NCBI GenBank assembly: GCA_030156615.1
Contig: JASGME010000009.1
Coordinates: forward strand, 1 to 40,409
Direction of reading: 5' to 3'
Source: Candidatus Woesearchaeota archaeon
GTDB lineage: Archaea; Nanobdellota; Nanobdellia; Woesearchaeales; UBA119
Length of the DNA: 40,409 bases
Below are positions 18,892 through 21,441 of this stretch, piece by piece (the stretch's first letter is position 1; each line of letters opens with the position of its first letter). A program made the translations under genes and the position numbers. The notes beneath the pieces are model-generated. The model saw only the letters and a list, made by a program, of their open reading frames with translations. It was not told the origin of the DNA and did not search any database.

Positions 18892-19524
18892 ATGATAACT
18901 AACGAAGAATTTGCCAAAGCAACAAAAGAATTTGATAATATTGAAAAAAGAGGTAGTTTCTACAATATGGCCATTGATCTTATTGAGAAAGATTTTGAGA
19001 TCGAGGCTTATTTTCTAATTCTTGCCACTTGGAATTTTGCTCGTTTTAGATATGCTGTAAACAATTTTGATATCAATGGATTTAAAGAAAAAATCAAAGA
19101 ACTTAATCCTTATTTTGACAAAGTGAAAGACAAAGATTTTAGAACTATAAATTTTGATGAGTATAAAGACAATATAAAAAAGATATTTACAACCCTATCT
19201 TCAATTAAAGGGGTTGAATACACTGGGACATCAAAAATAATGCATCTTAGAAACAGGTCTGTTTTTGTTATGTGGGATGGGTATATTAAAGGAGAGAAGC
19301 CAAAGAGATATTACAACGAGCTTGAAATTGTGAAAAGTGGATTCTGGAAATATAAGAGATATAAGAATGATCCTGAAAATTATTTTCAATTCCTTAAGGA
19401 TATGCAGGAAAGGTTTAAAGACATAATTTTTCAGAGTAATGAAAAAACCTTTGCTAAAGCAATAGATGAATTCAATTATGTTAAGATAACTCTTCCGATC
19501 CAAGACATGGAAAAAAAAGAATAA
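18892..19524 (+). CDS. Uncharacterised 210-residue protein (first cassette-like gene)
   Basis: No family is recognised with confidence. The protein is mostly helical, with no signal peptide or membrane segment. The most distinctive block is TGTSKIMHLRNRSVFVMWDGYI (about 110-131 in two parts), a pattern of small-K-x-hydrophobic-His-Leu ... FVMWD that recalls uncharacterised helix-hairpin-helix/DNA-glycosylase-like proteins. The residues around Lys and Asp would be candidates for an active site. A TATA box lies about 70 nt upstream, leaving a leader of about 45 nt. It is followed by a palindromic non-coding element and then the 567-residue defence-like gene on the same strand. Confidence 0.65.
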   Translation: MITNEEFAKATKEFDNIEKRGSFYNMAIDLIEKDFEIEAYFLILATWNFARFRYAVNNFDINGFKEKIKELNPYFDKVKDKDFRTINFDEYKDNIKKIFTTLSSIKGVEYTGTSKIMHLRNRSVFVMWDGYIKGEKPKRYYNELEIVKSGFWKYKRYKNDPENYFQFLKDMQERFKDIIFQSNEKTFAKAIDEFNYVKITLPIQDMEKKE

Positions 19525-19737: not shown

Positions 19738-21441
19738 ATGATACCATCAAATATTGAGAGGGAACACATTATTAAGGCCATACGGGAAATTGATTCAAAT
19801 GAAATTCCTCTTGGCAGGGAATCAAAGAAATTTTGCTTGATCTTTGAAGAAAAGCGATATCCGCCAAAATATGTGTTATCGTTAGCTAACAGATTTGCTA
19901 ATAATAAGGAACTCAATCCGTCTAAGTTTAGTGGTGGTCAGGAAACAAATAATTTTTTAAAGAGATTGGGGTTTGATATCGAGGAAACTCCCTCATCGGG
20001 TACATTTGTTAAGTCAATTTCTTCTCAAAGGAAATCCTGTGAAACAACACAAAAAAGACACAATGAAAGATGTCCAGAGTGCAAAAATACTATTAAAAGA
20101 ATGTTAAAGAAGATTTATGGCGATGTAGAGATCAATTATAAATTTGAAGTGAGTACAAATGTTGAGGATTATAAGGATTTTTCATTTTATCAAAAACTCA
20201 AAGAAATTCTTTTAGAACTCCAGAAGTACAGAGGGCATACAGATTTTGTAAGAGCTCGGAACCTTCCTCGCTGTGATTTTTTCGTTCCAAATCCCGGCTT
20301 CATCGTAGAGTTTGACGAATCCCAGCATTTTACAGAACCGAGAAAAATATCACTGCAAAAATATCCAAAGAATCTTAAATTAGGCTTTTCACTTAGGAAA
20401 TGGACTGCTCTTTGCGAAAAAATCAATGCAAAGGATAATTATCCGCCTTTCAGGGATGAACAGCGAGCGTGGTATGACACTTTGAGGGATTTCCTGCCAG
20501 AAATCAAATGCTTGAAACCCACAGTAAGACTTTACTCCAAGGAAATGCAATGGTGTAGTTTAAACCCAGAAAATCCACGGGATATAGAAAAGTTTAGAAA
20601 ACTTATCGAAAATAGACTAGGAAGATTAAGTAATTGGGTTGCGACAGTAGTTCTTCGATCGAATGGAGAATATTCCAATGAGGATCGGCTTGAGGTTTTA
20701 TCTCAGGTCGTGGACTTGATTGCAAAGAAAACGGATGGCGATGGTGTGATTTTATTCCCAGGTGGGTGGTTTAGTGCAGATAAAAAAGGGGCGAGAAGTC
20801 TGTATAAATTGGTAGAGAAGCAAGTAAGAACTATTCTTAGTAAAAAAGATAGAATTATGATTGCTTGCTTGGGGATTGACGGAAGAAAAACAAGCGAGTG
20901 GGCAAAGGACCAGATCGGAGCGGCAATAAGCAGAGAAGGTATCATAGCCTTAGGACGAAAATTCCATCCAACGCTTAATGAAAAAGAGAATGTTAACCTT
21001 GCGAGTGACCACTTAGAGAAAGAGAAAGACAAGTCCAGGGTATTTAAATTTGGCGGAAGGAAATACTTTATTTGTGTTTGTTACGATATTTTTGGAATAA
21101 AGCAAAAGCGAATACCTAATTTTGGAATAGATGTTGTCCTGGATCTCGTTCACGGTTTTCATCCGAAAGGTAAAGGTCCGTCTGGTGCCCCAAATTTTGC
21201 TAGACACGGATTTGCTGGAGTCTCAACTCAATGGAAATGCCCTGTTTTTGGTGCTGCGGTCTTCTTTAACCGCGAAATCCCTGAGCGTTGGCCGTCAGGT
21301 GTTTATTGGGATGGAGGAAAGACTCGTAACTCCGAGTGCACCTATGAGAATATAAGTCTAAAACCAGTTGAAGATAATATGCCACTCAAAGTATCGGAAG
21401 GTGTTGCCTCAGTAAGAATCTATAATCTTGACGTGATATAA
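19738..21441 (+). CDS. Candidate defence protein: ScoMcrA-like head, nuclease-like and nitrilase-like domains
   Basis: 567 residues, apparently three parts. Residues about 7-83 resemble the N-terminal head domain of ScoMcrA-type modification-dependent restriction enzymes (RYPPKYVLSLA, KFSGGQETNNFLKRLGF). Residues about 100-255 include a CPEC knuckle (112-115) and a PD-(D/E)XK- or Vsr-like acidic pattern (D180, then VEFDESQH with E191, D193, E194). Residues about 298-565 resemble a carbon-nitrogen hydrolase fold: GVILFPGGW (336-344), RKFHP (407-411) and FICVCYDIF (444-452), aligning Lys408 and Cys448 with the nitrilase triad; the Glu position appears replaced by Gly. SD-like GAGG is 8 nt before the ATG. 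CGN arginine codons are more common than in neighbouring genes. Likely horizontally acquired; the defence role is inference. Confidence 0.6.
   Translation: MIPSNIEREHIIKAIREIDSNEIPLGRESKKFCLIFEEKRYPPKYVLSLANRFANNKELNPSKFSGGQETNNFLKRLGFDIEETPSSGTFVKSISSQRKSCETTQKRHNERCPECKNTIKRMLKKIYGDVEINYKFEVSTNVEDYKDFSFYQKLKEILLELQKYRGHTDFVRARNLPRCDFFVPNPGFIVEFDESQHFTEPRKISLQKYPKNLKLGFSLRKWTALCEKINAKDNYPPFRDEQRAWYDTLRDFLPEIKCLKPTVRLYSKEMQWCSLNPENPRDIEKFRKLIENRLGRLSNWVATVVLRSNGEYSNEDRLEVLSQVVDLIAKKTDGDGVILFPGGWFSADKKGARSLYKLVEKQVRTILSKKDRIMIACLGIDGRKTSEWAKDQIGAAISREGIIALGRKFHPTLNEKENVNLASDHLEKEKDKSRVFKFGGRKYFICVCYDIFGIKQKRIPNFGIDVVLDLVHGFHPKGKGPSGAPNFARHGFAGVSTQWKCPVFGAAVFFNREIPERWPSGVYWDGGKTRNSECTYENISLKPVEDNMPLKVSEGVASVRIYNLDVI

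Follow-up and report, generated by a model that had tools for sequence, protein, structure and literature searches.

The protein encoded by one gene in the window (the whole analysed stretch of 40,409 nucleotides from a Candidatus Woesearchaeota archaeon) comprises a ScoMcrA-type head, a nuclease-like domain, and a nitrilase-fold domain. At roughly even odds, its family is an undescribed, horizontally spread nuclease system in which a nitrilase-fold partner gates the nuclease, and which most likely acts against phages or plasmids. An undescribed defence system is probable because the pairing of nuclease and nitrilase fold recurs in dozens of distant microbes, sometimes beside antiviral genes.

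Gene and Domain Composition

The 567-residue open reading frame lies on the + strand at 19738–21441 and is intact, with no internal stop. It starts with the ATG at 19738, which is backed by the MIPxNI opening of its relatives, and ends with the stop codon at 21439–21441. AlphaFold2, with a 74-sequence alignment, models the whole protein as three folded domains with a mean pLDDT of 90.9, and residues 1–293 modelled alone reach a pLDDT of 92.3. The features are listed in Table 1. The open reading frame, the three domains, and the key residues described in the first-pass annotation are confirmed, and as the head, nuclease, and nitrilase features recur across phyla, they are not due to chance. The label of a fusion suits the window gene, but it covers only part of the family, because the nitrilase partner is exchangeable and is sometimes a separate gene.

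The protein passes no curated cut-off in Pfam or NCBIfam scans and has no match to PADLOC profiles at E values up to 1. A reverse transcriptase domain is absent according to the Pfam, NCBIfam, and PADLOC scans. A single-sequence search of solved structures with the window protein gave chance matches only, and a resemblance of the C-terminus to beta-lactamase in such a search (E 0.4–0.8) was discarded as chance.

Table 1. Coordinates of the gene and its features in the window.
Feature	Positions	Strand	Evidence
Whole gene, head + nuclease-like + nitrilase-like	19738..21441	+	ORF, AlphaFold2 pLDDT 90.9
ScoMcrA-type head, residues 1-85	19738..19992	+	Profile match 5zmm_A, Foldseek 5zmm_B
Flexible linker, residues 86-107	19993..20058	+	pLDDT <50 at 87/88-105 in both models
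PD-(D/E)XK-like (Vsr/DUF559-like) nuclease domain, residues 108-293	20059..20616	+	74-sequence alignment, weak fold matches
CPEC motif, C112 + C115, putative zinc site	20071..20082	+	Nearly invariant in 74 sequences
Nuclease motifs D180 ... E191-F-D-E-S-Q-H197	20275..20328	+	D180, E191, D193, E194, Q196, H197 invariant
RDEQRAWYDTLRD motif, residues 239-251	20452..20490	+	R239, D240, E241, R243, W245, D247, D251 invariant
Nitrilase-fold domain, class II, residues 297-567	20626..21438	+	Foldseek 4h5u E 3.5e-10; class II profile
FPGGW, residues 340-344, Gly342 at catalytic Glu position	20755..20769	+	Class I/II column comparison
Lys408, nitrilase lysine	20959..20961	+	Invariant in aligned classes I, II, III
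Glu415, second nitrilase Glu spacing (RKxxPTxxE)	20980..20982	+	Glu in 9/11 class II
Cys448, nitrilase cysteine (CYD)	21079..21081	+	Invariant in aligned classes I, II, III

Head Domain

The head profile, made from 74 relatives, matches residues 4–98 of ScoMcrA (5zmm_A) with an E value of 7.7e-4. In Foldseek, the model of residues 1–293 has 5zmm as its top PDB match, with a probability of 1.00 over 91 columns. The earlier call of a ScoMcrA-like head is thus borne out by both profile and structure. ScoMcrA is a type IV, phosphorothioate/5mC-dependent restriction enzyme with the order head-SBD-SRA-HNH. The window protein has a homologous N-terminal head, and a modular nuclease architecture is common to the two. 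In contrast, the window protein lacks SBD, SRA, and HNH, and has a PD-(D/E)XK-like nuclease and a nitrilase fold. Pfam and NCBIfam scans of the window protein found none of the modified-base reader domains SRA, SBD, EVE, NEco, and wH. The head of ScoMcrA is stated to be without known function (PMC6224610). A head of this type may contact the target DNA.

The same head precedes HNH, DUF7662, and NOV_C in other proteins. Plain protein searches of plasmids reach the head only, with a match to an HNH protein encoded by plasmids of Klebsiella and E. coli, and a single-sequence search gives a head match on a protein of Thermococcus barophilus pTBMP1. The pTBMP1 cluster (L002:3452-8511) is operon-like and contains RNase J, the head-DUF7662 protein, class II glutamine amidotransferase, gamma-glutamylcyclotransferase, and ADP-ribosylglycohydrolase. 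In L114, L132:6427-8400, and L115, the head stands before a Walker A protein (GPPGTGK; McrB-like as judged by eye), a protein with NOV_C, and one with HNH, which suggests that it is a general targeting domain. At L130:9415-10524, the head is fused directly to a class II nitrilase, with no nuclease. This head-nitrilase gene adjoins a HerA-type ATPase gene, and its other neighbour encodes a protein judged NurA-like by eye.

Nuclease Domain

The nuclease-bearing part has 19 invariant residues in the 74-sequence alignment, among them D180, E191, D193, E194, Q196, H197, R202, D233, R239, D240, E241, R243, and W245. Identity to the window's nuclease-bearing part is 37–65% across archaea and bacteria. 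Foldseek with the model of residues 1–293 found no significant PDB match for the nuclease half, which counts against the preferred explanation, and the weak fold matches include the influenza PA endonuclease, the Cas4-family protein SSO0001, and Vsr. In the viral structure library, the matches are restriction and homing endonucleases and DUF559, with probabilities up to 1.00 and E values of only 0.02–0.08. The proposal of a nuclease in the middle part survives on the invariant motifs and these weaker fold matches, which fall short of proof, and residues 108–293 are described as nuclease-like. The CxxC pair formed by C112 and C115 may bind zinc.

The motif layout D ... VExDxxxH ... RD is common to the window nuclease, the Vsr, DUF559, and REase_MTES_1575 nucleases, and DUF7255, and the fold similarity to them is weak. 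The DUF7255 profile scores below its cut-off. In contrast to these groups, the window nuclease has no significant family match and represents a distinct, tightly conserved family of 186 residues with RDExRAWYDTLRD and CxxC.

A nuclease of selfish or homing type that carries accessory domains would fit two observations: the weak structural similarity to homing endonucleases of phages, and an EFDExQH pattern that nuclease-like proteins from viral contigs share. However, the protein is encoded in no phage record or viral contig searched, and homing enzymes would not be expected to have a head or a conserved nitrilase partner, which makes such a nuclease very improbable.

Nitrilase-Fold Domain and Active Site

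The best Foldseek match of the C-terminal half is yeast Nit2 (4h5u; E 3.5e-10, probability 1.00), and further matches are amidases, carbamoylases, and the glutaminase domain of NAD synthetase, all with a probability of 1.00. The C-terminal part, annotated by eye as nitrilase-like, has the alpha-beta-beta-alpha nitrilase fold on this evidence. The order of its elements, strand-FPGGW, strand-Lys408, and strand-Cys448-helix, fits a nitrilase. The class II profile, which includes the window sequence, matches residues 297–567 at 3e-123, and the Pfam scan of the window protein gives no match to PF00795.

Class I partners are canonical, with Glu-Lys-Cys and Pfam CN_hydrolase, and match PF00795 at 4e-11 to 4e-16. 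The Lys and Cys are kept in 10/10 aligned sequences of class I and 22/22 of classes II and III. Lys408 and Cys448 were rightly assigned as the nitrilase Lys and Cys, and both are invariant in the window's class. The column of the catalytic Glu contains Glu in all ten class I sequences, and Gly or Ala in 11/11 sequences of class II and 11/11 of class III. Gly342 of FPGGW holds this position in the window protein, as had been noted. The second nitrilase Glu (Lys+7) is Glu in 9/11 class II sequences and Gln in 10/11 of class III. Profile comparison relates class II modestly to class III (E 1e-5, hhalign probability 81) and to class I (E 9e-4, hhalign probability 23); the PG/PE and Cys columns line up in both comparisons, and comparing class III with class I alone gives no significant match.

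Carbon-nitrogen hydrolases (PF00795; Nit2, D-carbamoylase, the NadE glutaminase domain) share the fold and the Lys, Cys, and second-Glu positions with the window C-terminus. In contrast, the window's class has Gly or Ala for the first Glu and is fused to a nuclease. Ordinary hydrolysis by the window copy is doubtful because the general-base Glu is gone in every aligned member of its class. The first-pass annotation had proposed that the protein senses modified DNA and then acts on a metabolite. While its three domain calls and the novelty of their order stand, the role of a metabolite hydrolase does not hold well for this copy.

The lost Glu also fits class II and III folds that are pseudoenzymes and hold a dimer or a higher assembly, so that gating would come from assembly and not from ligand chemistry. 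A dimer structure is common to known members of the nitrilase superfamily (PMC4700190), and nitrilase domains form the filament core of DRT1 (PMC13275509). The invariant Cys448 and Lys408 would be needless in a pure scaffold, and this view is rather unlikely.

Relatives and Distribution

The window genome (0.86 Mb, 30 contigs) has a single copy of the gene. In its own phylum, the gene is found in 1/371 genomes and is lacking in the other 370. Plain protein searches of the own phylum, phages, and viral contigs found no full-length relative. A scan of genome collections, steered to EFDExQHF and RDExRAWY, found 200 relatives, and 80 of them were retained. These patterns were chosen via an alignment of the window protein with invented variants that keep the guessed motifs; the variants served for the choice of patterns only, and matches were confirmed with the real sequence. 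The patterns lie in the nuclease only and therefore do not by themselves select for a C-terminal partner. The directed scan comprises 76 distinct nuclease loci, spread over many archaeal and bacterial phyla. Frameshifts or stops are frequent in L017, L025, L037, L049, L061, and L108, and represent gene decay or draft-assembly errors.

Partner Classes and Their Exchange

A nitrilase-like domain of class I–III is fused or adjacent in 50/76 nuclease loci by profile, and in 53/76 when class V is included. Profile searches place class I in 18 of the 76 loci, class II, to which the window protein belongs, in 15, and class III in 17, proportions that are not natural frequencies because ranking by tblastn with the window sequence favours the window's class. 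Class V occurs in 3/76 loci and is nitrilase-like by eye from its sequence, with no significant match. The remaining loci have a class IV partner (3), other extensions (6), or no recognised partner (14), and these last 14 count against the preferred explanation.

Among the 53 nitrilase-like partners, 40 are fused and 13 are in a neighbouring reading frame. Two-gene forms are found for class II (L032), class III (L023, L033), and class I (L067, L072, L074), and the partner in L067 is a plain CN_hydrolase (E 6.5e-13). The apparently split cases L058, L061, L017, and L037 look like draft-genome frameshifts. Apart from the head-only fusion L112, no class I–III matches occur elsewhere in the fetched flanks.

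In the reverse test, a class II query against 295 genomes gave nine strong matches. Seven are nuclease fusions (one of them frameshifted), one is a decayed fragment, and one is a head + nitrilase protein with no nuclease that adjoins a HerA-type ATPase gene. This test indicates that class II is close to exclusive to the nuclease/head module, and the existence of a head + class II protein without a nuclease counts against the preferred explanation.

A quickly built tree of the nuclease domain, in which many branches are weak, needs 25 or more changes of the partner label, compared with a possible minimum of 6 and a mean of 47 in shuffles, so the labels are clustered. When only the well-supported branches are counted, the changes number no fewer than 3 for class I, 5 for class II, and 3 for class III. 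Partners are thus passed down for some time before they are swapped or lost.

A second kind of partner, class IV, is not nitrilase-like by eye and is found in L044:8563-9558, L076:1554-2573, L060 (C-terminal), L050, L055, L107, and L109. The class IV partners of L050, L055, L107, and L109 contain a CAxx[EA]GPxF motif, and Pfam has no match for the L044 copy. A nuclease-only clade with no recognised partner comprises L075, L077, L080, and L082-L086, from Myxococcota, Binatota, and relatives; some members possibly lie beside molybdopterin oxidoreductase-like genes.

Proposed Mechanism

The constant part of the system would be a Vsr/DUF559-like PD-(D/E)XK nuclease, which in many cases carries a ScoMcrA-type head, and the variable part an exchangeable partner, usually of nitrilase fold, that is either fused or the product of a neighbouring gene. 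Of the two parts, the nuclease is the probable effector, because its catalytic residues are kept everywhere while the nitrilase varies from an intact triad to Glu-less forms. It would act by cleaving DNA. The nitrilase fold may bind a small molecule or a modified group via its Cys/Lys pocket, may assemble the protein, or both, and would in this way gate cleavage; such a gate would still need its Cys and Lys.

The roles may also be reversed, with the nitrilase-fold domain as the effector: the nuclease or head would detect or process foreign DNA and switch on the hydrolase, which would then deplete or make a metabolite. DRT1 offers an abortive-infection parallel in which nitrilase activity is required (PMC13275509), and a system of an RT-nitrilase and a TM protein is antiviral (PMC9122126). 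Neither the Cys nor the Lys varies in any of the three aligned classes. Such an effector is the better fit for class I, with its complete Glu-Lys-Cys, and for the nuclease-less L112/L130, in which a head is joined to class II with no nuclease. However, the general-base Glu is absent in 22/22 aligned members of classes II and III, the same nuclease also has non-nitrilase partners, and the catalytic residues of the nuclease are never lost in the aligned set. The reversed roles are therefore unlikely, although they are the least unlikely of the alternatives.

In a more novel reading, the Glu-less pocket would be a covalent sensor, whose Cys/Lys captures a nitrile- or amide-bearing group and so licenses the nuclease. 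Examples of such groups on phage DNA bases would be 7-cyano- or 7-amido-7-deazaguanine and carbamoylmethyl-adenine. This reading is speculative and has a small probability.

Genomic Context

The window copy sits between RadC and a ribosomal/SecY cluster, and Pfam and PADLOC scans recognise no defence genes beside it. Upstream of the gene, a 210-residue open reading frame (18892-19524) has a weak LmuB match (E 1.4e-3). Neither this reading frame nor the other window neighbours have relatives in the homologous loci. The all-against-all comparison of neighbours found no widespread recurrent neighbour besides the partner.

Some other members do have defence genes beside them, as seen among ten neighbours picked mostly for size and not at random. 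PglZ and DrmD, which are BREX/DISARM-type genes, are directly upstream in L045, and Druantia DruE is close to L012. The surroundings of L014 include a type IV restriction enzyme, a Mokosh-like helicase, and a second helicase that carries an MTES_1575 nuclease. Further loci adjoin HisRS or HypF, and the metabolic genes beside some relatives count against the preferred explanation. PADLOC families matched at E <= 1e-10 amount to 84 among 128 neighbours vs 17 among 129 random-region genes, a comparison that counts families and not genes, has a small control drawn at random from part of these genomes, and includes matched families that are general ATPases or CARF proteins. The expectation of a defence role thus gains from the genes beside some relatives and loses from the lack of recognisable ones beside the window copy.

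In two loci that are not related, the gene immediately upstream of the nuclease is ADP-ribosylglycohydrolase-like (L036:126-869, L044:7125-7913), and one such gene is also near the head protein on pTBMP1. Those in L036 and L044 fit a role in DNA repair or base modification and not in defence, in which a Vsr-like nicking nuclease and an amidase-like partner would act on bases that are damaged or modified. The resemblance of the nuclease motifs, and of some of the weak fold matches, to Vsr and mismatch endonucleases is in line with such a role. It is at odds with the rare and patchy distribution, the defence-island neighbours in several loci, and the heads common to restriction-type proteins, and repair or base modification is an improbable function.

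Comparison with Known Systems and Significance

To our knowledge, antiviral nitrilase domains are known from a few reverse-transcriptase systems only, where they have no known substrate. The literature searches, which covered open-licence papers, combined nitrilase with restriction, defence islands, nuclease, and effector, and apart from the reverse-transcriptase systems they found only papers that were general or on other subjects; for DUF7255, nothing was found in them. The statement that no described system has this order of domains remains valid, given no PADLOC match, no Pfam or NCBIfam match above cut-off, and no paper in the open-licence literature.

DRT1 and the class 3 UG-Abi reverse transcriptases resemble the window protein in having a C-terminal nitrilase fold on a nucleic-acid enzyme (PMC13275509). 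In contrast, the window protein has a nuclease and a head where DRT1 has a reverse transcriptase, and while the nitrilase tetrad is intact in DRT1, the window's class lacks the first Glu.

The family represents a second, unrelated nuclease family that repeatedly gains nitrilase-fold partners. Its class with an intact triad and its Glu-less classes can be compared, as a natural experiment, to learn what the nitrilase fold adds. The unexplained ScoMcrA head is now seen in a broader range of nucleases, so that its function can be put to the test. If the covalent sensor were true, it would be a new way to read DNA modification, with partner classes tuned to different chemical groups.
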